A DNA stretch of 10,765 nt from Dehalococcoidales bacterium. GTDB lineage: Bacteria; Chloroflexota; Dehalococcoidia; Dehalococcoidales; UBA5760. The stretch spans positions 1-10,765 of the forward strand of contig JAGYOC010000325.1 of the NCBI GenBank assembly GCA_018399795.1, given 5' to 3'. The position numbers and the translations under genes are program-made. The notes under the pieces were generated by a model, which was not told the DNA's origin, ran no database searches, and saw nothing but the letters and a program-made list of their open reading frames with translations. Positions 1 through 10,765 of this stretch are shown here, one piece after another (position 1 is the first letter of the stretch; the number at the start of each line of letters is the position of its first letter).

Positions 1-14
1 CAGCGAGTAAACCG

Positions 15-2726
15 CTATTTCAGGGTAGCACGGGCGTCGACCACCCAGTATCCCTTGCCCTGTGCCATAACCTTTACCGGGTTGAGGTCCATTTCGGCAA
101 GCTCCGGGATATCCTCGACCAGTGCTGAGATACGGAGCAGGAGTTCTTCCAGGGATTGCGTGTCGCTGGGAGGAGTGCCCCTTAATCCGGAAAAAAGCTT
201 GGCCATCCTGACCGACCCGACTAAATCTCTGGCATCACGATCGGTCAGAGGGTGAAGTTTTACCACAACGTCGTTGAGCAGTTCAGCATGTATCCCCCCC
301 ACGCCGAACATTATGAGGGGGCCGAAAAGCGGGTCCTGTGTTACCCCTACGATGGCCTCAATCCCCCCCTTGACCATTTTCTGTACCACAACACCCTTCA
401 TCTCATCTTCACGGCCGATATCGACCAGTTTGGACTTTATATCGGAAAACGCATGCTCCACATCCTCGGCCGACTTGAGGTTGAGCACCACACCGCCAAC
501 ATCGGTTTTATGGGTAATCGTATCCGAAGCCAGCTTCACAACAACCGGAAAACCTATTTTCGAAGCCAGGTCGCCCGCCTCCGACTCTGTAGCGGCCACC
601 CCGGACTCGGCAACACGGATTCCGTAGCAGGAGAGCAATTCCCTCATATCACCCGAAGACATCCAGAGCGGCCTTCTGGTGGTACTGGTTAAAGCGGACT
701 CGACTATCTTCCTTGCCCGCCTCCGTTTCAAACCGGTAAAGCTGACCAGCTTGCCCTTGGGGCGCTTTACCCATTCGCCATATTCAATCGACCTGGACAG
801 AGCGAGCACGGCATCTTCAGGAAAAGAATAGCGGGGTACGAAAAAATCATCGGAACCCAGCTTCTCCTTAACCCCCTGCTGTCTCATGGCGCAGACGAGT
901 AGCGGTTTACCCTTTTTCCGAAATAGTGACAGTACTTTTTTAACCGCATTTTCCATCTCGTTGGGATCAATAAATATGGGAGGCATAAATATGGCGATGA
1001 CCGCGTCGTTTTCCTTATCTCGAGCCAGTGTTTCCAGAATACCCTCAAATTCTTTGCCTGTAGCCCCGGCGGTGGTATCGAGAGGATTGTTGAGGGGAAT
1101 ATCCCTTCTCAAAACGGTTCTCAATTTTTTCTTTGTGTCTTCACCGAGCGGAGGCAGTTTCAGACCATATTGCTCACAGGCATCGGCAGCCAGAATACCC
1201 GGACCACCACCATTGGTAACTACAAAGACCCTGCGGCCCTTGGCCACCGGCTGTCCGGAAAGCAGAGTGGCCACGTCGAAAAGCTCTCCCATGGTATTGA
1301 CACGTATAATACCAGCCTGCCGGAAAAGCGCCTCAGAGGCCACATCCGAGGAAGCCATAGCCCCGGTATGGGAGGAAGCAGCCCTGGAACCGGCAGCAGA
1401 ACGTCCACTCTTAACCGCGGCTATCGGCTTGGAAGCGGAAACTCTGCGGGCTATGCGTCCAAAACTCCGCGGATTACCGAAGGACTCCAGATAGAGCAAT
1501 AGAACCCTGGTTGAGCAGTCCTGCTCCCAGTAATGGAGGAAATCATTGGCTGATATATCGGCGCGGTTACCGACACTGGCAAAGCCCGAAATTCCCATAT
1601 CTATGCTCCGCGCATAGTCCAGAATGGCCAGCCCCATTGCTCCACTCTGAGAGAGAAAAGCCACATTGCCATGCGTTGGAAATATCGGTGAAAAGCTGGC
1701 GTTCATACTTACCTCGGGGTCGGTATTGATCACGCCCATACAGTTGGGCCCTACCAGGCGCATCCCGTACCCCAGGGTCACCGAGCGGAGTTCACGCTCG
1801 CGGGTTTTCCCCTCTGATCCGCTTTCACTGAAGCCATCCGATATAACGATTACCGCACGCACCCCTTTATGACCGCATTCATCGACGACCTTTATTACCA
1901 GTTCTGCCGGAACAGCTACTATCGCCAGGTCAATGTTGCCGGGAACATCGAGAACCGAGGGATAGGCCTTCACCGACATCACAGACTCCGCCTTGGGATT
2001 AATCGGATAAACCACACCGGAGAAACGGTTCTGCATAACACACTCGAAGAGAAGCTGCCCGATGGTACCCGGTCTCCTCGAAGCCCCGATTACCGCAATG
2101 GAACGGGGGGAAAGGACATAGCGCATGGAAGCCAGCGTTGAAATACGGGCCCTTTCTTCCTCCTTCCTGGCTACCATTCTGGTTCTGGCGATGGGAAAGC
2201 TGATGTGGTAAACACCTTCCTCAAGGTAACTGGTGATATGGAAACCGTAATCACGGAAAACCGTCATCATCTCGTCGTTTTCCATCAGAACATCCGCTTC
2301 AAAATCAGTGATACCGTTGTCACGAGCCACATTGGCAAGCCATTCCACAAGCCTGGTTCCAATACCAAGGCCATGGTAGCTATCTTCAATAACAAAGGCT
2401 ACCTCGGCAGATGTTTTATTCGGCAAACGATAGTACCGCCCGATAGCTATGATCTCCTTGCGGTTTCGCTGTACTTTCTCGGCAACAAAAGCAAAGGTAT
2501 TTTGGTAATCAACCGTACAGAAACGAACGGCGTCCTCTCTCCCCAGCGTAGGCACATGATGAAAACGAAGATACTTGGTCCGGTCACTGAGCCGGGAAAT
2601 AAAGGAAAGCCACTCCTCGACATCATCCCTCCGTATCGGCCTGAGCATCAGGCGCATTCCGTCCCTGAGCAAAACCTCGGCTTCATACTGGGCTGGATAC
2701 TTTACATCCTGGTTATCTGTCGCCAT
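15..2726 (-). CDS. GNAT domain fused to ADP-forming acyl/acetyl-CoA synthetase
   Basis: The product is 903 residues. Residues about 20-180 form a GNAT acetyltransferase domain with the acetyl-CoA loop HGLGIG near 118-123. Residues about 205-300 are a CoA-binding Rossmann domain (SIAVIGASRRPGTIG). Residues about 330-490 are a succinyl-CoA-ligase-like domain with the motif SSHTG; its His (about 453) is the expected phospho-histidine. Residues about 680-903 are an ATP-grasp domain with HKTDVGG near 740. Family knowledge: ADP-forming synthetases interconvert acyl-CoA + ADP + Pi with acid + ATP + CoA; PatZ/SlPat-type fusions acetylate lysines of metabolic enzymes. GNAT here is N-terminal, as in actinobacterial SlPat, and not C-terminal as in E. 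coli PatZ. Retention of the His suggests a live synthetase, which is inference. I chose ATG at 2726 because AGGA lies 7 bases upstream; an in-frame GTG at 2732 is too close to it. Cytoplasmic. Subfamily and substrate are uncertain. Confidence 0.9.
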   Translation of the reverse strand: MATDNQDVKYPAQYEAEVLLRDGMRLMLRPIRRDDVEEWLSFISRLSDRTKYLRFHHVPTLGREDAVRFCTVDYQNTFAFVAEKVQRNRKEIIAIGRYYRLPNKTSAEVAFVIEDSYHGLGIGTRLVEWLANVARDNGITDFEADVLMENDEMMTVFRDYGFHITSYLEEGVYHISFPIARTRMVARKEEERARISTLASMRYVLSPRSIAVIGASRRPGTIGQLLFECVMQNRFSGVVYPINPKAESVMSVKAYPSVLDVPGNIDLAIVAVPAELVIKVVDECGHKGVRAVIVISDGFSESGSEGKTRERELRSVTLGYGMRLVGPNCMGVINTDPEVSMNASFSPIFPTHGNVAFLSQSGAMGLAILDYARSIDMGISGFASVGNRADISANDFLHYWEQDCSTRVLLLYLESFGNPRSFGRIARRVSASKPIAAVKSGRSAAGSRAASSHTGAMASSDVASEALFRQAGIIRVNTMGELFDVATLLSGQPVAKGRRVFVVTNGGGPGILAADACEQYGLKLPPLGEDTKKKLRTVLRRDIPLNNPLDTTAGATGKEFEGILETLARDKENDAVIAIFMPPIFIDPNEMENAVKKVLSLFRKKGKPLLVCAMRQQGVKEKLGSDDFFVPRYSFPEDAVLALSRSIEYGEWVKRPKGKLVSFTGLKRRRARKIVESALTSTTRRPLWMSSGDMRELLSCYGIRVAESGVAATESEAGDLASKIGFPVVVKLASDTITHKTDVGGVVLNLKSAEDVEHAFSDIKSKLVDIGREDEMKGVVVQKMVKGGIEAIVGVTQDPLFGPLIMFGVGGIHAELLNDVVVKLHPLTDRDARDLVGSVRMAKLFSGLRGTPPSDTQSLEELLLRISALVEDIPELAEMDLNPVKVMAQGKGYWVVDARATLK

Positions 2727-2936
2727 TATCACATCCTGAAGATATTTTCTAAATACAAAAGAACAGTTGAATCAAGCTGCGCTACTCAAGTCAAGACCAT
2801 ACAGGTCTTTAAATGTTCTGTATAATAAGCTTCACCAAACTCAAGATTCTCATCGGCGATAATATGAAGATACCGAAATTTTAACACGGAACCGGAGGCG
2901 AAACCTTACAACACTCATTAAAGTATACCCGCCGGC
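2727..2936 (-). promoter_or_regulatory. long 5' leader of the GNAT-acyl-CoA synthetase gene
   Basis: If transcription starts just below the promoter at 2943-2971, the messenger has about 210 untranslated bases before the ATG. I see no recognised riboswitch class. It contains a small hairpin (AAGACC, 5-base loop, GGTCTT, around 2793-2809) without a following T run. It also has a 22-codon arginine-rich open frame at 2850-2918 (ATG start, TGA stop) that lacks a convincing ribosome binding site. The non-coding stretch 2727-3010 otherwise holds nothing I can name. Confidence 0.35.
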
Positions 2937-2942
2937 ATTTTT

Positions 2943-2971
2943 ATGATAGGTTAATCATCATTGCCTGTCAA
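2943..2971 (-). promoter_or_regulatory. sigma70-type promoter for the acyl-CoA synthetase gene
   Basis: On the minus strand the -35 box is TTGACA (2971-2966), an exact consensus match. A 17-base spacer follows, then the -10 box TATCAT (2948-2943), five of six consensus bases. It lies downstream of the thiamine-binding family gene stop and points at the synthetase gene, so that gene is probably transcribed on its own. Predicted from sequence only. Confidence 0.65.
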
Positions 2972-3010
2972 CAAGATGTAATACTATCGGGCTGTCCGAG
3001 ACTACGGAAG

Positions 3011-3313
3011 TCATCCCATCTTCTTCGATACAGCCTGAATCTTACCCTCGGCAGAAGAATTTCTATCGCGGCGGTCATCAATTCTAATGGTGGTTACCAC
3101 TCTTTGCACCCCCTCACCGAAAACCGATTCATGCATCTCTCTGCAGGCGTCCATCACATCCTTGAGTTCGCCCTCAATTATGGTCCCCATTCCGGTAAGG
3201 GTATAATTCAACTCAGGCCTCCGTTCAAGAACACCTACCGCCCTGACCACATACTGGCTTACGGAGGGCGTAACCGTGCCCACAGGCACCACGGATATCT
3301 CAGCAATGACCAT
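3011..3313 (-). CDS. MTH1187/UPF0045 family thiamine-binding protein
   Basis: A 100-residue protein beginning MVIAEISVVPVGT with the conserved SVSQYV segment, the Y-x-L-T-G-M-G-T-I-I-E-G strand and the helix with RVVTTIRIDDRRD. This matches the small alpha/beta ferredoxin-like MTH1187/YqgV (DUF77) family in length and layout. Members bind thiamine or related pyrimidines in the cytoplasm; the exact role is unsettled. The ATG at 3313 has AGGAGG seven bases upstream, a strong start. It is divergent from the formate dehydrogenase gene and lies 284 bases upstream of the synthetase gene on the same strand, with a separate promoter between them. I see no good promoter of its own, and no terminator after its stop beyond a 4-bp stem. 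Confidence 0.88.
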   Translation of the reverse strand: MVIAEISVVPVGTVTPSVSQYVVRAVGVLERRPELNYTLTGMGTIIEGELKDVMDACREMHESVFGEGVQRVVTTIRIDDRRDRNSSAEGKIQAVSKKMG

Positions 3314-3524
3314 CAGCGAACCTCCTACTGCACCTTTTTACTCACGCTTTTTGCCGGAAATTTTTAAGGACTCCTACCATAATGGATGGCCTCTGGTGTT
3401 TGCATATTGGCCGATCAGCAATTATAATGGGCTAACTTTTTAAACGACTTCCAGTTTAGAGACCGGTTAAGATAGCACCATTACACTACAAGCCATCATT
3501 TATTATCTTTTTTGAGGTGATGTT
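3314..3524. other. divergent intergenic region between thiamine-binding gene and fdhA
   Basis: These 211 bases separate two divergently transcribed genes. They hold the plus-strand promoter at 3400-3428 and the ribosome binding sites of both genes. The -10 box overlaps a short palindrome (ATTATAAT, 3421-3428), so a TATAAT can also be read on the minus strand at 3426-3421, but no acceptable -35 box accompanies it there. No operator palindrome or riboswitch was recognised. Confidence 0.5.
3400..3428 (+). promoter_or_regulatory. sigma70-type promoter for the formate dehydrogenase gene
   Basis: The -35 box TTGCAT (3400-3405), a 17-base spacer and a perfect -10 box TATAAT (3423-3428) form a near-consensus promoter. 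It would start transcription near 3435 and leave a leader of about 90 bases before the ATG at 3525. Predicted from sequence only. Confidence 0.65.
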
Positions 3525-6500
3525 ATGGGTACAATAAACCTTAGCATAAATGGTAAAAATGTCAAGGTAGAAGAGGGGCAAAGCATTCTGGAAGCGGCCA
3601 AAAGCTGCGGTGTCTATATCCCAAGCCTGTGTTATTATCCAAGTCTGAGACCTCTACCGGAAGTAGTGCCCGATATGGCCTGCCAGCTCTGTGCCGTCGA
3701 GGCAAATGGAGAAATAGCCCTTTCCTGTACCACCCGCGTAGCCGAGGGGATGAAGGTCGAAACAGAGACTCCGAAGGTACGGAAGTTAAGAAAAAAGAAG
3801 CTTACCGATATTCTGTACCGTTATCCGGAAGCCTGCCGTGAATATCAGGAGCAGGATAAATCCGGGCCACCTGATATCCAGCTGAGTGATGCCATAGCGG
3901 AGCGCTGTAATCTCTTCCCGAGTAATGGAATCTGCGAATTACAGAATGTGATTAACCACGTCGGTGTGGAGGAACTACCGAACCCCCTTACCAAAAAGCT
4001 GGCCGTTACAGAAGATGGCCCTTTCTTCAACCGTGACAACAACAAGTGCATTCTCTGCGAAAGATGCGTACGTGTCTGCGATGATATCAGGGGCAGGCGA
4101 GCGATTGAATTCGCCTTTCCCTGTCATCGCGCCTGCCCGGCAGGTATCGATATACCCCGTTACATCCGCCTTATCGGGAGAGGAAGATTCGGGGCTGCTC
4201 TGGCAGTGATACGGGAGAAGGTGCCATTCCCGGGTGTCCTGGGTAGAGTCTGCATCCATCCCTGCGAGCAATCCTGCCAGAGGGGAACCGAGGTGGACGA
4301 CCCCTTACAGATACGCATGCTAAAGCGCTTTGCCGCCGATAACGGCAACGATTCGTGGAAAAAACAGTCCTGGAAACTTTCCCCGAGCGGGAAGAGCGTG
4401 GCGATAGTCGGTTCGGGGCCAGCCGGCCTGACGGCGGCCTTTTATCTCGCCAAGCTCGGGCACCGGGCCACTGTTTTCGAAGCTCTGCCCAAACCGGGGG
4501 GAATGATGCTGGCCGGTATCCCGGAGTACCGTCTGCCCCGCGATGTCCTCGATAAGGAAATAGACGAAATAAAGAACACCGGTGTCGAAATCAGGTTGAA
4601 CCAGCCGGTGGAATCAATCGACTCGCTCTTCGGACAGGGATATGATGCCATCTTCCTCGGGATCGGTGCCCATCAGGAAATTCAGCTGGGCATCGATGGC
4701 GAGGACCTGGAAGGTATTATCGGAGCGGTGGAATTTCTGCGCCGTGGCAATCTGGGAGAACGGGTCGAAGTCGGCGAGCAGGTAGGTATTGTCGGCGGGG
4801 GAAACGTTGCCATAGATGCAGCACGGATGTCTCTCCGCTTCGGTGCCAGGAAGGTTACCATCTTCTACCGGCGTACCCGTAACGAGATGCCCGCATCCCC
4901 TGAAGAGGTTGATGCCGCCATCCAAGAAGGTGTGGAGGTTGATTACCTGGTTGCCCCATCGAGGGTTATCCAGAATAACGGAAAACTAAGCCTGGAGTGC
5001 CGCCGCATGAAATTGGGAGAGCCGGATGCCAGCGGAAGGGCTCGCCCCGTTCCTATTGAAGGTAGCGAATTCAGTACCGATCTGGACACCCTTATCGTTG
5101 CCATCGGCCAGCGGCCCGAGGTCCCCCCCCAAATAAAGGTCGAACAGGGAAAGGGGAATGTATTGACGGTATCCGCCGAAATGATGACCAGCCGGGAGGG
5201 AGTTTTTTCGGCAGGTGATTGCGTAAGCGGTCCCGCATCCGTGATAGAGGCAATAGATTCAGCTCGAAGAGCAGCCAAGGCAATCGATCGGTACCTCGGT
5301 GGCAGCGGCGATATCGCCGAATCACTGGTCCCGCCCGAAGAAGCCAACTCCCTACCGGGAGACAACGTCCCCGAAGCCAAAAAGGCGGTAACATCTTTCC
5401 TTTCTCCCAAAGCCAGCATTAAGGGGTTCGATGAGGTCGAGCAGCCCTGGAACAGGGACGACGCTGTTGCCGAGGCACAACGCTGTATGCGCTGCTACGT
5501 CATCTCCGCACCCAATGAAAAGACACTGGAAGAAGCTGAATGTCAGTTCTGTGGAGCCTGTGTGGACTCCTGTCCTACCGGAGCACTGGTAGAGAGGTCC
5601 ATATCACAAAAGGTGGTACCAGATCGGACGGTGACCACCATCTGCCCCTACTGTGGAGTCGGCTGCCAGCTAAATCTCGAGATTCAAGGCGACAGAATTA
5701 CCCGGGTGGTACCAGACCCGGAGGGGCCTTCGAATCATGGACAGGCCTGTGTCAAGGGCAAATTCGGCCTTGACTTCACCCATCACCCAAATCGTCTTAC
5801 CGAACCCCTGGTGAAAAGGCATGGTCATTTTGTCCCGGTTGAATGGGATGAGGCGCTGGATATCGTCGCCCACAAGCTGAGCAGCTATAAGAGTGACGAA
5901 ATGGCAGTTTTTTCCTCAGCCAAGTGCACCAATGAGGAGAATTACCTCGTCCAGAAAATGGCCCGGGCCGTACTGGGCACCAATAATGTTGACCACTGCG
6001 CGCGTCTATGCCATGCCCCCACTGTTGCCGGCCTGGTACAGAGCTTCGGCAGCGGTGCTATGACCAATTCAATAGGCGAGATAGGTGACGCCGCCTCAAT
6101 CCTGGCCATCGGTACCAATACCACTTCAGCCCACCCGGTAATCGCTCTCGAAGTCATAAAGGCCATACGTAAGGGAGGAAGGCTGATTGTAGCCAACCCA
6201 CGGGAAATCGACCTCTGCCGTTATGCCGAAATATGGCTGCAGCACCAGCCCGGTACCGATGTCGCTCTTCTTATGGGGATGATGAGAGTAATAGTCGATG
6301 AAAAACTGGAGGACGGCGGCTTCATCGCAGAAAGGTGCGAGGGTTTCGAGGATTTCAGGCGTTCGCTGGATAATTTCAGCCCCGATACCGTGGCAGACAT
6401 TACCGGCGTACCCGCGGAAAAAATAGCGGCTGCAGCTAGAATATTCGCCCAGGACAGGCCTTCAACCATCCTTTATGCGATGGGTATCACCCAGCATTCT

Positions 6501-7652
6501 CACGGTACAGATAATGTAATCGCCACGGCCAATCTGGCCATGCTCACGGGAAATGTGGGCAAGCCCTCTACCGGGGTAAACCCGCTCCGCGGGCAGAACA
6601 ATGTTCAGGGCGCCTGTGACTTGGGCGCACTGCCCAATGTCTATCCTGGCTATCAGTCGGTAACGATACCTGCCATACGAGAAAAATTCGAGAATGCCTG
6701 GGGTGTTCCCCTTTCCCCGGAGCCGGGCCTCAAAATCACCGAGATGATTCCTGCAGCCGACCAGAAAAAGATAAAGGCAGCATACATTATGGGCGAGAAC
6801 CCCGCTTTAAGTGAGCCCGACATAGACCATGCCAGAGAAGCCCTGTCCAAGCTGGAATTTCTAGTGGTACAGGACATATTTTTCACCGAGACAGCAGAGC
6901 TTGCCGACGTAATTCTGCCGGCGGCGAGCTTTGCCGAAAAGGACGGCACTTTTACCAATTCAGAAAGAAGGGTGCAGCGACTGAGAAAGGCTATAACCAA
7001 ACCCACCGGCAAAGCCAAGCCGGATTGGCTGATTACCTGCCAGATTGCACAAAAGATGGGAGCCCGGGGATTTGACTTCATTCACCCCGGCCAGATTATG
7101 GAGGAAATAGCATCGCTTACACCGATTTACGGAGGCATCAGCTACGAGCGTCTAGGAACGACCGGTTTGCAATGGCCCTGTCCAACCGAAGACCACCCGG
7201 GAACTCCCTACCTCCACAGCCAGGTATTCAGCCGCGGCAAGGGTCAGTTCCTGCCCCTTGAATACAAACCGCCCATGGAGCTCCCCGACCAGAAATATCC
7301 ACTGATTCTTACCACCGGAAGAAGCCTCTATCACTGGCACACGGGGACCGTCAGTCGCAGGGTATCGGGGCTCAACGATTTAATGGGTGAAGAACTGGTG
7401 GAGATAAACCCCAATGACGCCCTCAGGCTGGGTATCGAAGAAGGTGATATGGTCAAGGTTACCTCGAGAAGAGGCAAGGTATCGGCCAGAGCCAGGGTAA
7501 CCAGGGTATCGCCGCCGGGTGTTGTTTTTATGACCTTCCATTTTGCCGAGAGCCCGGGCAACCGGCTCACCAACCCGGTTTTGGACCCGGTAGCAAAGAT
7601 ACCGGAATATAAGGTATGTGCGGTGAGAGTGGAGAGGAACGGGAAACACTAA
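3525..7652 (+). CDS. fdhA: formate dehydrogenase alpha subunit with nested GltD/NfnB-like FAD/NAD(P)H oxidoreductase module
   Basis: The product is 1375 residues, against roughly 700-900 for usual FdhA. Order: [2Fe-2S] domain (C36, C53, C56, C68); a degenerate NuoG-type cluster region (C104, C128, C137); first ferredoxin motif C175/C178/C181/C185; GltD/NfnB-like module about 196-660 with cysteines C200/C204/C243/C247/C251, FAD loop GSGPAG (296-301), NAD(P)H loop GGGNVA (424-429) and FAD-closing GVFSAGDC (559-566); CMRC (654-657); second ferredoxin motif C673/C676/C679/C683; molybdopterin catalytic part from about 704 with CPYCGVGC (707-714), C742 and K744; catalytic Cys829-His830; and a dinucleotide-binding domain from about 1258. 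It should interconvert CO2 and formate at Mo/W-bis-pyranopterin. The GltD-like part suggests direct NAD(P)H coupling (inference). No NuoE/NuoF-like partner is next to it. There is no signal peptide or Tat motif, so it is cytoplasmic. GAGGTG sits five bases before the ATG. Confidence 0.93.
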   Translation: MGTINLSINGKNVKVEEGQSILEAAKSCGVYIPSLCYYPSLRPLPEVVPDMACQLCAVEANGEIALSCTTRVAEGMKVETETPKVRKLRKKKLTDILYRYPEACREYQEQDKSGPPDIQLSDAIAERCNLFPSNGICELQNVINHVGVEELPNPLTKKLAVTEDGPFFNRDNNKCILCERCVRVCDDIRGRRAIEFAFPCHRACPAGIDIPRYIRLIGRGRFGAALAVIREKVPFPGVLGRVCIHPCEQSCQRGTEVDDPLQIRMLKRFAADNGNDSWKKQSWKLSPSGKSVAIVGSGPAGLTAAFYLAKLGHRATVFEALPKPGGMMLAGIPEYRLPRDVLDKEIDEIKNTGVEIRLNQPVESIDSLFGQGYDAIFLGIGAHQEIQLGIDGEDLEGIIGAVEFLRRGNLGERVEVGEQVGIVGGGNVAIDAARMSLRFGARKVTIFYRRTRNEMPASPEEVDAAIQEGVEVDYLVAPSRVIQNNGKLSLECRRMKLGEPDASGRARPVPIEGSEFSTDLDTLIVAIGQRPEVPPQIKVEQGKGNVLTVSAEMMTSREGVFSAGDCVSGPASVIEAIDSARRAAKAIDRYLGGSGDIAESLVPPEEANSLPGDNVPEAKKAVTSFLSPKASIKGFDEVEQPWNRDDAVAEAQRCMRCYVISAPNEKTLEEAECQFCGACVDSCPTGALVERSISQKVVPDRTVTTICPYCGVGCQLNLEIQGDRITRVVPDPEGPSNHGQACVKGKFGLDFTHHPNRLTEPLVKRHGHFVPVEWDEALDIVAHKLSSYKSDEMAVFSSAKCTNEENYLVQKMARAVLGTNNVDHCARLCHAPTVAGLVQSFGSGAMTNSIGEIGDAASILAIGTNTTSAHPVIALEVIKAIRKGGRLIVANPREIDLCRYAEIWLQHQPGTDVALLMGMMRVIVDEKLEDGGFIAERCEGFEDFRRSLDNFSPDTVADITGVPAEKIAAAARIFAQDRPSTILYAMGITQHSHGTDNVIATANLAMLTGNVGKPSTGVNPLRGQNNVQGACDLGALPNVYPGYQSVTIPAIREKFENAWGVPLSPEPGLKITEMIPAADQKKIKAAYIMGENPALSEPDIDHAREALSKLEFLVVQDIFFTETAELADVILPAASFAEKDGTFTNSERRVQRLRKAITKPTGKAKPDWLITCQIAQKMGARGFDFIHPGQIMEEIASLTPIYGGISYERLGTTGLQWPCPTEDHPGTPYLHSQVFSRGKGQFLPLEYKPPMELPDQKYPLILTTGRSLYHWHTGTVSRRVSGLNDLMGEELVEINPNDALRLGIEEGDMVKVTSRRGKVSARARVTRVSPPGVVFMTFHFAESPGNRLTNPVLDPVAKIPEYKVCAVRVERNGKH

Positions 7653-7674
7653 ACTATCGTAAATGCCGTAAATG

Positions 7675-8328
7675 CTACTGGTTACTCGAGTATCTGACCA
7701 GCTTCCATACCACGGTCTCACAGAGAACCACAATATCTTCAGTGGTCAGATAGCGGGTAATGCTGGCATCGAAGAGTATATTCGCTGATGGGGTGAACTC
7801 TTCATCACCCCCCCATACTATCAGAGTCGGTTTCACAAAAGGGAAGGCTCTGATGTTCACCGCTACATCCCCGTATTCCACCTTTTTCCCACCCATGTTG
7901 GCAGCCGCATCTAACAGACGTGACGGCGACGGGCCAAAATAGTCCTGAACCGGCTCTATAGCTCTTTTGGAAAAGGTAGGATAATAGATATTGCCTTCCG
8001 GTATTTCTTTGAATGCTATCATCTTTCCTTCGGTCGGAGCCCCCCTGGCCCCGGTCAAGTAGTGGAGTATAAGCACCTGTTCTCTGATTGGCACCGGTTC
8101 TTCGCTGCCCAAAAGGGCTATCTCGGCACACGGAAGTTTTATCTGGTGCGGCCGGTTGAGGTAGTCAAGCAGTATCAGGTTATCCCCTTCCATATATCGA
8201 GCGCCACTGTTAACGCAGAGACGGGGAATATCGCTTCTGCTCAGTTTATCCGCCGCAATCTTATAGGCGGCTTCATAACCGTACTCATAGTTTCTTTGTG
8301 ATGGTATATCTAAGTTACTGCTTTCCAT
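7675..8328 (-). CDS. DUF3786 domain-containing protein
   Basis: A 217-residue protein (from ATG 8328) that I recognise as DUF3786. It has an N-terminal helix (GYEAAYKIAADKL), RLCVNSGARYME, the core LHYL followed by GARGAP, the YPTFSKRAIEPV segment, FG-x-SPSRLLDAA, and the C-terminal GGDEEFTPSANILFD with ITRYLTTEDIVVL. The function is unknown. To my knowledge the family occurs mainly in anaerobes, often near corrinoid or CODH/ACS genes, which agrees with this neighbourhood. It is soluble, with no membrane segment or Cys cluster. An in-frame GTG at 8382 would add 18 residues, but these are encoded by the terminator hairpin, so I prefer ATG 8328 despite its weak ribosome binding site. It converges on fdhA with 22 bases between the stops; no terminator is evident there, only a tandem 9-base repeat (CGTAAATGC, 7658-7675). 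Confidence 0.85.
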   Translation of the reverse strand: MESSNLDIPSQRNYEYGYEAAYKIAADKLSRSDIPRLCVNSGARYMEGDNLILLDYLNRPHQIKLPCAEIALLGSEEPVPIREQVLILHYLTGARGAPTEGKMIAFKEIPEGNIYYPTFSKRAIEPVQDYFGPSPSRLLDAAANMGGKKVEYGDVAVNIRAFPFVKPTLIVWGGDEEFTPSANILFDASITRYLTTEDIVVLCETVVWKLVRYSSNQ

Positions 8329-8378
8329 TCCCAAAAAGAGTGGAAGGTACCCACCTCGTATGGCAACCTTCCACTCAT
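8310..8378 (-). other. possible 22-codon leader ORF through the terminator hairpin
   Basis: An ATG at 8378 preceded by AAGGA at proper spacing opens a 22-codon frame ending with TAG at 8312-8310. The peptide would begin MSGRLPYEVG and end WEWKAVT. The frame runs through the whole hairpin and T run and overlaps the first 19 bases of the DUF3786 gene in another reading frame. Translation of it could unfold the hairpin or deliver ribosomes to the DUF3786 start. It is too short for coding statistics, so this is speculative. Confidence 0.25.
8333..8376 (-). terminator. intrinsic terminator (or attenuator) after metF
   Basis: Read on the minus strand, GAGTGGAAGGT (8376-8366) and ACCTTCCACTC (8348-8338) form a perfect 11-bp stem with a 17-base loop. 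Five Ts follow directly (8337-8333). It stands 38 bases after the metF stop and ends five bases before the DUF3786 ATG. It therefore closes the acsC-acsE-metF unit and may gate read-through into DUF3786. Confidence 0.75.
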
Positions 8379-8413
8379 ACACGGTCCTTAAATAGTATGA
8401 GGATACAAATTGT

Positions 8414-9301
8414 TTACATTCCGGATGCTTCCAGAATTGCTGGAATGTACTTATCCCAGCCCAGTGTCATCAGGTGAGCCCCCTGACACATATCCTTCAT
8501 ATCTTTCATCAGTTCTCCGGTTATCTCTATCGATGTTTTGGGTTTATCATCAGTATTTTTCATGCGGTCAATAATATCCTGAGGGACAAAAACACCGGAG
8601 ACATTCTTGTTCATAAACTTGGCCATACCAGCATTCTTAAGTGGTATCAAGCCTACCAGAACCGGGACCTTGATTCCCTCCTTATCCAGTCTCTTCATAA
8701 ACCTTTCAAACATGCTGGCATCAAAGACAGCCTGGGTTTGAAAGAATTTAGCCCCCGCCTCAATCTTCTTGATCATCTTGATAATCTGCATCTCATAGGA
8801 CGGCTCGGTATCAGAACAGGGAGTAACCACAGCTCCGGCATACAGGTTTGGTACGCCCTTAAGCTCGTTGCCCACCATATCGTGGCCGCCGTTCAGGGTC
8901 TTTATCATCTCAAGGAGTTGAACCGAATCCACATCATAGACCAGTTTTGCCTGCGGGTGGTCACCCAACGCCGGCAGGTCACCAGTAATCGCCAGAACAT
9001 TCTCCAGACCAAGAACAGATGCACTCAGCAAATCCGATTCCAGTGCTATCCTGTTCCTGTCACGGGTAACAACCTGGTATATGGTTTCCAAACCCGCATC
9101 CAGCGCCAGATGGCAGGTAGCAAGCGCGCCGAGCCTCATCACGGCACTCTGCTGGTCAGTAACATTGGCAGCAGCCACGCTGGTATCCTTAAGAATCTCT
9201 GCTACTTCCCATATCTCACTGGTATCAGTCCCCTTCAATGGACCTATTTCGGCAGTAACCGTGAATTTACCTGCCTCCAGCTGCGACCTCAATACACTCA
9301 A
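8414..9301 (-). CDS. metF: methylenetetrahydrofolate reductase
   Basis: A 295-residue protein of the usual length for the short bacterial MetF (TIM barrel, FAD). The N-terminal TAEIGPLKG carries the expected catalytic Glu18. AANVTDQ (44-50), AITGDLPALGDHP (104-116), FFQTQAVFD (186-194) and LVGLIPLKN (215-223) match flavin- and folate-site segments of the family. It reduces 5,10-methylene-THF to 5-methyl-THF in the cytoplasm, the last step of the methyl branch before AcsE. The start is a TTG at 9301: GGAGG lies eight bases upstream, whereas the nearby ATG at 9308 is out of frame and stops after 13 codons. No metV, the usual zinc/Fe-S partner in acetogens, is next to it in this window. Alternative: a MetF used only for methionine synthesis, which the acs neighbours make less likely. 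Confidence 0.92.
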   Translation of the reverse strand: MSVLRSQLEAGKFTVTAEIGPLKGTDTSEIWEVAEILKDTSVAAANVTDQQSAVMRLGALATCHLALDAGLETIYQVVTRDRNRIALESDLLSASVLGLENVLAITGDLPALGDHPQAKLVYDVDSVQLLEMIKTLNGGHDMVGNELKGVPNLYAGAVVTPCSDTEPSYEMQIIKMIKKIEAGAKFFQTQAVFDASMFERFMKRLDKEGIKVPVLVGLIPLKNAGMAKFMNKNVSGVFVPQDIIDRMKNTDDKPKTSIEITGELMKDMKDMCQGAHLMTLGWDKYIPAILEASGM

Positions 9302-9496
9302 TTTTCATTCCTCCTTATATATGTTTTTTGAATTTCTACGCGAATTTAGGTCATTCAATTAAAATGGCCACTACTATAATAACACAGACACACCCGGAGA
9401 AGATACCCCAGGGTTAGATTCCCGCCATCATCCTTATTTACCACCGGTTATTGAGGCTATTGATTTAGAACAGGCTATTCCAAACCAAACCGGTGG
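9302..9496. other. acsE-metF intergenic region with possible metF promoter
   Basis: These 195 bases hold the metF ribosome binding site (around 9310-9315, minus strand) and a possible extended -10 box on the minus strand (TGT then TATTAT, 9381-9376). The -35 region about 17 bases above that box is poor. The long inverted repeat is listed separately. I see no gene and no T-tailed terminator. metF could therefore be co-transcribed with acsE, have its own weak promoter, or both. Confidence 0.35.
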
Positions 9497-9497
9497 T
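9440..9497. repeat. 10-bp inverted repeat enclosing an 8-bp direct repeat
   Basis: ACCACCGGTT (9440-9449) and its exact complement AACCGGTGGT (9488-9497) flank a 38-base loop. Inside the loop AGGCTATT occurs twice (9454-9461 and 9472-9479). It begins at the acsE stop codon. Neither strand shows a T run after it, so it is not a classic terminator. It may be an RNA-stabilising or processing hairpin at the acsE 3' end, or a protein-binding site. Confidence 0.45.
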
Positions 9498-10375
9498 TAA
9501 AGATTCAGCCAGGAATGGGAATACAGCGATTCCCCTTTTAGAACCCTGACCGTTTTTACATATTTGGCATCTTCTTTATCTAAGGAACCGGGGGCAGGAT
9601 TTTCACCGTCCATAACGCGGTGTACCAGATCGACCAGCTCCGGCCGCTTGCCCCTGGCAATATTGACCAGTTCTGAGTCAAAGGCATCCACTATTGCCGA
9701 ATCCAGTCCGTATTTCATCAACATCATCAAATAGGTCCTGTTGAGATAGGGTCTGAGCTCATTGGGTGTACCATTGGATATATTGGATAAACCCACCGTG
9801 GACTTACATCCCGGGGCAATATCCTGAAGCATGCTCATAAACTCCAGACAGGGCTGTACCTGGTTGGTATCGACATTACTTACCGGCGTTACAATAGGAT
9901 CAAACCAGATTCTCTCGTTGGGTATGCCCATTTCGTTCGCCTGATAAACAAGCTCCGCCGCAATCATCCCTCGCTCAGCAGAATCACGGGGCATTCCATC
10001 TCTCCCCCATAAAAGGCCTATCATATCACAGCCATATTTCTTTACCAGTGGTAACCCTTCCGCCATACGATCGAGGGATACCGAATTTATCAGGGCCCTG
10101 CCTTCGCCGTGATTTTTCAACCCGGCTTCAAGCGCCGCCAGATTTGTCGTATCCAGAGAAAGTGGTTTATCGGTGACTTCACGGACAGTTCGCACCACCC
10201 ACTCCATGAGTTCATCACCTGCCTTGCGGGCAGGGCCGATATTGAGGTCCAGGTAATCCATACCCGCCTCGATTTCCGCCCGGGCCATATCCAGCACCGG
10301 CCCAGCATCTCTTGACTTGAATGCCGGGCCAAAAGTCTTCGATATGACATTGATATTTTCGCCGATAAGAATCAC
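9497..10375 (-). CDS. acsE: methyltetrahydrofolate:corrinoid/iron-sulfur protein methyltransferase
   Basis: A 292-residue pterin-binding TIM-barrel enzyme. It opens MILIGENINVISK and keeps the family folate-site residues: YLDLNIGPA (41-49), Asp75 in SLDTTN, Asn97 in LINS, Asp159 in WFDP and Asn198 in VGLSNIS. These correspond to Asp75, Asn96, Asp160 and Asn199 of the Moorella enzyme. It transfers the methyl group of 5-methyl-THF to Co(I) of the corrinoid protein AcsC/AcsD in the cytoplasm. About 30 residues extend past the Moorella enzyme's C-terminus (ending SHSWLNL). I chose GTG 10375, not the in-frame GTG at 10393, because AGGAGG lies six bases before 10375 and would fall inside the coding region with the longer start. 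It follows acsC by 14 bases, so the two are one operon. Confidence 0.93.
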   Translation of the reverse strand: MILIGENINVISKTFGPAFKSRDAGPVLDMARAEIEAGMDYLDLNIGPARKAGDELMEWVVRTVREVTDKPLSLDTTNLAALEAGLKNHGEGRALINSVSLDRMAEGLPLVKKYGCDMIGLLWGRDGMPRDSAERGMIAAELVYQANEMGIPNERIWFDPIVTPVSNVDTNQVQPCLEFMSMLQDIAPGCKSTVGLSNISNGTPNELRPYLNRTYLMMLMKYGLDSAIVDAFDSELVNIARGKRPELVDLVHRVMDGENPAPGSLDKEDAKYVKTVRVLKGESLYSHSWLNL

Positions 10376-10389
10376 TGTTTCCCTCCTTA

Positions 10390-10765
10390 TCACTGCCAGC
10401 CCTTGAGATAGGCCGGAATATGAGCCCCTTCACGTGGACCGATCTGTATTTCCCACCCGGGTAGTTCCTCTTCCAGACCACCGCTCTCAATGGCGATATA
10501 GCCGGGTATAATCAACTTCTTGTGTTTTACCCGGTCACCAATACCGCATTTCTTGACAAACGCCCCGATAACATCGGCACTGAACTTTCCTGCCGCCCAA
10601 GCCGTGAGAACGGAGAGGCCTTCGGTATCCATCACCAAAAGATAGCTAGGCACCCGGCTGTTCTCTATCTCACCGGAAACAATAAAATAGGTCAGGGAGA
10701 AATTGCAGGTAAGAACAACAGGGGAATTCTCATCAGGTCCACCAACCTCATAGATACCCTCCGTA
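10390..10765 (-). CDS. acsC: corrinoid iron-sulfur protein large (gamma) subunit, C-terminal part
   Basis: The frame is open to the window edge. The visible 124 residues are the C-terminus, so the real start lies beyond 10765. The diagnostic segments are EGIYEVGGPDENSPVV, NFSLTYFIVSGEIE, SYLLVMDTEGLSVLTAWA, KKLIIPGYIA, SGGLEEELPGW and IGPREGAHIP, which match the cobamide-binding C-terminal domain of AcsC/CdhE. With AcsD (not in the window) it carries the methyl group from AcsE to the acetyl-CoA synthase cluster. The N-terminal [4Fe-4S] domain and the barrel are outside the window. Its TGA stop is 14 bases before the acsE start. Confidence 0.93.
   Translation of the reverse strand, partial: TEGIYEVGGPDENSPVVLTCNFSLTYFIVSGEIENSRVPSYLLVMDTEGLSVLTAWAAGKFSADVIGAFVKKCGIGDRVKHKKLIIPGYIAIESGGLEEELPGWEIQIGPREGAHIPAYLKGWQ

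Follow-up and report, generated by a model that had tools for sequence, protein, structure and literature searches.

A circularly permuted GltD/NfnB-like module nested in the ferredoxin domain of a predicted formate dehydrogenase: a likely single-chain NADPH:CO2 reductase from Dehalococcoidales

Why do the two cysteine motifs of one ferredoxin domain lie 498 residues apart in a predicted formate dehydrogenase? The question is raised by a contig of a Dehalococcoidales bacterium (GenBank GCA_018399795.1, JAGYOC010000325.1), of which positions 1 to 10,765 were analyzed; this whole stretch of 10,765 nucleotides is called the window here. On its forward strand, the open reading frame (ORF) at 3525..7652 appears to encode an FdhA-type formate dehydrogenase (FDH) of 1375 residues, whose two ferredoxin motifs flank a GltD/NfnB-like module. 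An initial annotation had proposed that this module is nested in the ferredoxin domain (window positions 4047-5590, residues 175-689), and motifs, Pfam matches, relatives and a predicted structure now confirm it. The acetyl-CoA pathway starts with the conversion of CO2 to formate, and which carrier supplies the electrons for this step influences how acetogens balance their energy. As judged from its sequence, the protein represents a real and recurrent enzyme architecture, with a likely role as a single-chain NADPH:CO2 reductase.

The gene was identified from its ORF, Pfam domains, motifs and a match to NCBIfam TIGR01591 (Fdh-alpha) of 863.9 bits, against a curated cut-off of 666.25. The Pfam domains follow one another as Fer2_4 (residues 3-82), Fer4_20 (199-274), Pyr_redox_2 (291-580), Molybdop_Fe4S4 (701-753), Molybdopterin (757-1176) and Molydop_binding (1260-1366). 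The chain, all of it on the forward strand, opens with a [2Fe-2S] Fer2 domain (residues 1-82, 3525..3770; PF13510), in which C36, C53, C56 and C68 are invariant in alignment A1, and continues with the remnant of a His-Cys3 [4Fe-4S] region (residues 83-150, 3771..3974). Motifs, alignment and model place the first half of a 2x[4Fe-4S] ferredoxin at residues 160-197 (4002..4115; motif C175-C185 at 4047-4079) and its second half at residues 659-692 (5499..5600; motif C673-C683 at 5541-5573), with the nested module (residues 198-658, 4116..5498) between them. Within the module, a two-cluster domain (residues 199-274, 4119..4346; PF14691) carries C200, C204, C243, C247, C251 and K267 (codon at 4323-4325), and is followed by the flavin adenine dinucleotide (FAD) and NAD(P)H Rossmann domains (residues 291-580, 4395..5264). 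The Rossmann loops and the fold that characterize GltD/NfnB proteins are all present. The molybdopterin catalytic part (residues 701-1371, 5625..7637; PF04879, PF00384, PF01568, TIGR01591) holds the cysteines of the proximal [4Fe-4S] cluster (C707, C710, C714 and C742) and the sequence VDHCARLCH, in which C829 (codon at 6009-6011), which we take to be the active-site residue, is followed by H830. The window protein thus has the active-site Cys/Sec-His feature of FDH alpha subunits.

The motif places given in the initial annotation were correct throughout (C175/178/181/185, RRAIEF at 191, C200, C204, C243/247/251, GSGPAG at 296, GGGNVA at 424, SAGDC at 562, LEEAECQFCGAC at 668 and C673/676/679/683), and so was its expectation that the two ferredoxin motifs lie close together in ordinary FdhA. 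In insert-free FdhA ORFs drawn from related loci, motif starts are 41-44 residues apart in 59 of 60, versus 498 in the window protein; in the sixtieth, the pattern matched no motif pair. The initial annotation had also called for homologues with the same domain order. A search of approximately 5.8 billion proteins gave 7865 matches. Of the best 120 (61-93% identity), 119 carry the two motifs at a spacing of 497-499 residues; for the exception (P0008), the pattern found motif one only.

A query spanning both junctions (residues 150-720) had full or near-full length matches in 15 of 245 genomes sampled from one Chloroflexota class and in three of 251 genomes sampled from the phylum. Six shorter matches were seen in the phylum sample, five of which span approximately the module only and one residues 174-688. 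This last match (G174:C2) is a 646-residue frame with 48% identity to the window protein over those residues, which take in the module together with both ferredoxin motifs, and is apparently another host protein. In another class, 0 of 100 genomes matched, in a scan that held no positive control. All of these counts are lower bounds, with up to 5, 5 and 13 candidates scored per genome in the class, phylum and other-class scans, respectively. Eight nested loci occur among the best 80 of the 583 related loci (L001-L006, L008 and L010, two of them partial), and all are titled Chloroflexota, Chloroflexi or Dehalococcoidia. In L004, L006 and L010, the frame of the nested FDH is broken at the active-site position, where the window has Cys829; such a break is consistent with what would be expected of TGA-encoded selenocysteine.

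In a confident AlphaFold model (predicted local distance difference test, pLDDT, 83.5), both motifs belong to one closed ferredoxin, from which the module loops out; the initial annotation had named this arrangement as support. Values below 50 are found at residues 103-134, within the His-Cys3 remnant. By structure match, the module shares 43% identity with 5jca_L over 394 residues, and its fold lies within 1.8 A of NfnI-L. An earlier AlphaFold job (residues 1-1200, with 73 nested relatives and no insert-free rows) reached a pLDDT of 68.2, with the ferredoxin region below 50, and was set aside as too poor to judge. Alignment A2, to which GltD-only rows had been added, was likewise dropped, the second ferredoxin motif of insert-free FdhA having been drawn onto C654/C657; GltD-only rows were left out of alignment A3 (92 rows).

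Is the nested module then complete, as initially proposed? All of its parts are present, and their order is not the normal one. The module begins at approximately profile position 31 of Fer4_20, and the RCxxC pair that precedes the PC..CP motif in NfnB-type proteins is absent there. The missing N-terminal piece was found at the other end of the insert, past the Rossmann domains, at residues 625-657 (5397..5495), which end in RCMRC (C654 and C657, the pair lying at 653-657). On its own, this segment aligned weakly to the N-terminus of NfnB 4ylf_B (i-Evalue 15). When the 34-residue segments ending in RCxxC were compared as families by hhalign, the front segment of 11 unpermuted standalone modules (10 distinct) matched the C-terminal segment of 66 fused modules over 34 of 34 columns (Prob 99.4, E 1.3e-21), and the stretch that precedes fused modules (58 rows) gave no match to the unpermuted N-terminal segment. 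These alignments indicate that the insert is a circular permutant, in which the N-terminal segment of NfnB with its RCxxC has moved to the C-terminal end.

The permutation goes along with a second change. Our collection comprises 303 distinct modules, among them 116 nested ones (131 rows, some loci being present twice) and 10 unpermuted ones (11 rows). Ten of the 11 modules of standalone length carry RCxxC in front, and each of these ten shows Glu in the K267 column; the remaining one, L077, is of the permuted kind with Lys, and its sequence starts where the contig does. In the remaining 292, RCxxC lies behind save for eight exceptions, namely four without RCxxC (three separate-type rows that stop 0-10 residues past the module, and NuoF row L095, with 60 residues left), three HdrA-like rows with a CxxC only further on and an altered R-C start, and one that was counted as having it in front. 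This last one (P0005), the sole nested row of its kind, owes the match to ferredoxin motif one and has an RCxxC behind as well. The K267 column of the 292 holds Lys in 289 and His in three, all HdrA-like. Lys is thus found in 116 of 116 distinct nested modules and Glu in 10 of 10 distinct unpermuted ones. The permuted and unpermuted sets split at 100/100 in a tree of 63 modules, and therefore the permutation and the Glu/Lys change form one shared split rather than many independent events.

The substitution bears on the chemistry of the flavin. The Glu/Gln ligand of the FAD-proximal cluster, a GltD/NfnB feature, is not present in the window protein, which has K267 instead. In StnC, K170 at the same position is reported as a ligand of the FAD-proximal cluster, for which NfnB has Glu, and the flavin of StnC is reported to be non-bifurcating (PMC10482914). 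Because the Lys matches that of StnC, the flavin encoded in the window would be expected to act as a plain two-electron-to-one-electron switch. A further set of residues, Y448, R449 and R450, is kept in 131 of 131 nested rows. The Arg pair presumably reads the phosphate of NADPH, which suggests NADPH rather than NADH as the substrate of the module.

The host protein has also changed. The His-Cys3 motif (H...C..C.....C) that links Fer2 to the ferredoxin is absent from the window protein and present in only six of the 120 listed nested relatives, versus 58 of 60 insert-free FdhA; a separate Fer2-His-Cys3-ferredoxin-GltD protein (Fer2-HC3-Fd-GltD, the separate type hereafter) returned it in 119 of 120 listed proteins when used as a query. 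Mapped on the module tree, the state of this motif needs four changes, of which well-supported branches require three; the most economical interpretation is repeated loss, with the change count being equally compatible with regain. The [2Fe-2S] domain (residues 1-82) is conserved despite the loss of the connecting motif. Of 47 insert-free FdhA, 38 have a NuoF gene whose end lies no more than 700 nt upstream; this holds for 0 of 6 nested loci (L001, L002, L003, L004, L006 and L008), and no NuoF-like protein was detected among the seven window ORFs scanned with Pfam.

The permuted module is found in other hosts too. NuoF carries it at its end, and the separate type contains it as well; it also lies ahead of an Fd-FlpD region (L100) and near the His-Cys3 site of FdhA in 12 ORFs, the exact site having been judged by eye. 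These 12 (L007, L009, L011-L017, L030, L042 and L058) represent a second FDH fusion, with the module after Fer2 in a chain that has FDH-type catalytic domains, and come from several phyla, including Shewanella frigidimarina. In HdrA-like proteins (L091, L092 and L093, together with L096, L098 and L102), the permuted module lies inside a ferredoxin with a motif spacing of 512-523; these are Chloroflexota genomes, so the layout is not confined to ANME-1. NCBIfam HdrA2 matches L091, L092 and L093 in several pieces, below the curated cut-off, and His replaces Lys at the ligand column in three of 11 modules of the HdrA-like layout. With the separate type as the query, strong module matches (E up to 1e-100) were obtained in 63 of 100 genomes from the class of the L032 genome. 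Moorella FdhB may be of the separate type as well.

Taken together, these hosts allow a wider proposal, which we put forward tentatively and at slightly under an even chance. A permuted NfnB with the Glu-to-Lys ligand change could be a portable cassette for NADPH electron entry, the permutation allowing it to be spliced into the Fe-S wires of unrelated hosts (FdhA, at its ferredoxin and separately near His-Cys3; NuoF; the separate type; HdrA; an FlpD/MvhD fusion) and the Lys making its flavin non-bifurcating. In Dehalococcoidia-type Chloroflexota, it would have turned a multi-subunit FDH into a one-chain NADPH:CO2 reductase, with the NADPH half traded between catalytic cores.

Nested modules form one clade in the module tree (19 rows, 100/98, 100% of 200 bootstrap trees). 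In the catalytic-core tree, forcing the 16 nested cores into a single clade lowers the log-likelihood by 204 units, and such a clade is rejected by the approximately unbiased (AU) test (p-AU 1.0e-8). Insert-free cores of L018, L026, L027 and L031 fall within the L001-L003/L008 group (100/100), and within that group the separation of six nested from seven insert-free cores is not rejected alone (p 0.28). Six nested rows that could not be sliced by pattern were left out of the core analysis, 44 of the 92 rows were used in the careful tree, and the row sets of the module and core trees overlap without being identical. The contrast between a single clade of modules and catalytic cores that do not group together indicates that the NADPH and catalytic halves have been recombined.

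The two halves may have come together in either of two ways. In the first, a tenable account although one we would sooner bet against than on, an upstream gene of the separate type joined to fdhA, with loss of the redundant second ferredoxin half of the first gene and the N-terminal part of the second, such that each of two ancestors supplied part of the ferredoxin. In the second, the module was inserted into the ferredoxin loop of an existing FdhA. The separate protein exists and is encoded directly upstream of fdhA in L039 and L028, and the L039 module is the nearest outgroup of the nested modules (97/95). In a tree of 73 of 150 N-terminal rows, a 96/95 branch groups the nested N-terminal parts with 23 of 31 separate-type rows and one of 23 FdhA rows, but the other eight separate-type rows fall on its far side, and the AU test does not reject a grouping of the nested parts with FdhA (p 0.22). 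A crude profile test, biased by its narrower comparison set, also runs counter to fusion: of the 120 nested rows, 119 looked nearer to FdhA by motif one and all 120 by motif two. Nested rows are not one clade in the N-terminal trees (two changes), and one clade is not rejected (p 0.37).

For the enzyme itself, we consider it probable that the window encodes an NADPH:CO2 oxidoreductase that serves the methyl branch of the Wood-Ljungdahl pathway as a single chain and does not bifurcate; the reading offered in the initial annotation, in which one polypeptide takes electrons from NAD(P)H to the Mo/W site, is supported. NADPH would give a hydride to the FAD of the nested module, and electrons would leave singly through an inner cluster held by C204, C243, C247 and K267 as the predicted fourth ligand, pass to an outer cluster (C200, C251, C654 and C657), and reach the host ferredoxin, whose halves would grip the module. 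From there, they would travel through the [4Fe-4S] cluster at C707-C742 to the Mo/W site at Cys829. These predicted ligands are assigned after known GltD, NfnB, DPD and StnC structures. The permutation would place the outer cluster and the two termini of the module beside the host wire, and we propose that the module could therefore sit inside the ferredoxin loop; with electrons entering at the module, the His-Cys3 cluster and a NuoF-type partner would become dispensable.

Several points weigh against this proposal. The predicted model carries no cofactors, and the closure of its ferredoxin may owe something to the 44 insert-free rows of the alignment. Of the 120 listed nested relatives, 118 retain a Fer2 cysteine pattern, which a pure NADPH-to-Mo wire leaves unexplained. 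A NuoF-like gene lies approximately 6-7 kb upstream in L001-L003, and the visible DNA upstream of the window gene amounts to 3.5 kb, such that a distant partner gene is possible. Under standard conditions, the reduction of CO2 by NADPH is slightly endergonic, and therefore the enzyme could run as a formate oxidase.

The conserved Fer2 domain and the distant NuoF-like genes would find a use if the chain were a subunit of a bifurcating or confurcating complex, in which a NuoEF/StnAB-like partner docks at the [2Fe-2S] domain and, in the manner of StnAB in Stn, links formate with NADH, ferredoxin and NADPH. StnC-type chains are also the best structural matches of the N-terminal half of the window protein. 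We nevertheless regard such a complex as unlikely, given the lack of a NuoF gene in the 700 nt upstream of the six nested loci, the lack of a NuoF-like protein among the scanned window ORFs, and the loss of the His-Cys3 bridge between Fer2 and ferredoxin in 114 of the 120 listed relatives. Less probable still, to the point of being a long shot, is that the nested flavin bifurcates as in NfnB, such that CO2 receives one electron of NADPH and a second acceptor the other. The Arg equivalent to NfnB R201/StnC R239 is kept in 131 of 131 nested rows and the fold is close to that of NfnI-L, but Lys replaces the Glu ligand in every distinct nested module, no NfnA-like domain was found in the chain by Pfam, and the corresponding flavin of StnC, a chain with the same Lys and Arg, is reported to be non-bifurcating (PMC10482914). 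An artefact, whether an assembly join or two separate ferredoxin domains, has a negligible chance and nothing found in its favour, given that the motif spacing shared by 119 of 120 listed relatives excludes assembly error or chance, that junction-spanning matches recur in 15 of 245 genomes, and that the model has one closed ferredoxin.

The surroundings of the gene are compatible with a place in the methyl branch. Convergent to it, on the reverse strand, run genes for a DUF3786 protein (7675..8382; PF12654), a MetF-like methylenetetrahydrofolate reductase (8414..9301; PF02219), a Pterin_bind methyltransferase that we take to be AcsE-like (9497..10393; PF00809) and CdhD, the delta subunit of carbon monoxide dehydrogenase/acetyl-CoA synthase, which runs off the window (10390..10764; PF03599); these are Wood-Ljungdahl genes. 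Upstream, also on the reverse strand, lie genes for a CoA-ligase protein with an N-terminal GNAT domain (15-2732; Pfam CoA-binding, Succ_CoA_lig and ATP-grasp) and a thiamine-binding protein (3011-3313; PF01910). In L001, L002, L003 and L008, a DUF3786-like gene is directly upstream of the nested FDH gene and is preceded by a MetF-like gene, with one short gene between the two in L003, and a hydrogenase is found further upstream (hydrogenase and MetV were named by eye). DUF3786 relatives above 100 bits occur in seven of the best 80 loci, and the protein may have a role in the methyl branch or with a cofactor. Next after the nested gene of L006 come an NfnA-like gene, so named by eye, and an NfnB-like gene of the unpermuted kind, a pair that is a possible source of NADPH.

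If the proposed role is correct, one chain could do work that usually needs several. An NADPH-driven enzyme of this kind would make the picture of uncultured sediment Chloroflexota simpler, and it would have appeal as a biocatalyst. The permutation and the Glu/Lys switch also suggest a sequence rule, testable by mutation, that would separate the bifurcating flavins of NfnB from flavins that are plain points of electron entry. A GltD-NuoG fusion, StnC, has already been published (PMC7483475; PMC10482914), as has a two-gene NAD-FDH in related Chloroflexi; the accessible text of the latter report has no description of a nested GltD-FDH fusion (PMC5736913). The word stem 'permut' occurs 0 times in the main text of PMC10482914, and we found no description of GltD nested in an FDH ferredoxin, or of the module permutation, in searches that covered the open literature.

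Compared with known systems, the window protein shares most of its order with cytoplasmic FdhA that has a NuoF/FdhB partner (TIGR01591; PDB 6tg9_A, 7vw6_A and 9wxb_B), in which Fer2, 2x[4Fe-4S] ferredoxin, Molybdop_Fe4S4 and catalytic domains follow in the same sequence. It differs from these in the 461-residue module inside the ferredoxin, the lost His-Cys3 motif and the lack of a NuoF gene beside it. With the NfnB/GltD family (PDB 5jca_L, 4ylf_B and 2vdc_G), it shares the two-cluster domain and the FAD and NADPH Rossmann folds, but its N-terminal RCxxC segment is at the C-terminal end and Lys stands for the Glu ligand. The large subunit of StnC/NfnABC (PDB 8oh5_C, 9bov_A and 9n5u_A) likewise has a permuted, Lys-type GltD module with RCxxC behind, in a NuoG/Fdh-like chain. 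There, the module follows Fer2 and lies ahead of the His-Cys3/ferredoxin region and both ferredoxin motifs, unlike the window module between the motifs, and StnC/NfnABC modules form a branch of the module tree separate from the nested ones. The Fdh domain of StnC is reported to be inactive, and the chain to work with StnAB (PMC10482914; PMC7483475). Of the eight residues that bind clusters in related modules, only five were found to be kept in StnC by an earlier study (PMC7483475), which may be explained by the position of the missing CxxC at the other end. ANME-1 HdrA9-11 are described as having a 500-residue NfnB-like insert that interrupts a ferredoxin domain (PMC9012536), a layout that recurs in the HdrA-like relatives of L091, L092 and L093, but the host is a heterodisulfide reductase and not a molybdoenzyme; no HdrA family appears among the best 25 of 49 NCBIfam matches of the window protein. 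Finally, fdhF2 of Seep-SRB1g lies next to nfnB (PMC10553843), which pairs an FDH with an NfnB-type NADPH module as separate adjacent genes, unlike the single nested chain of the window.

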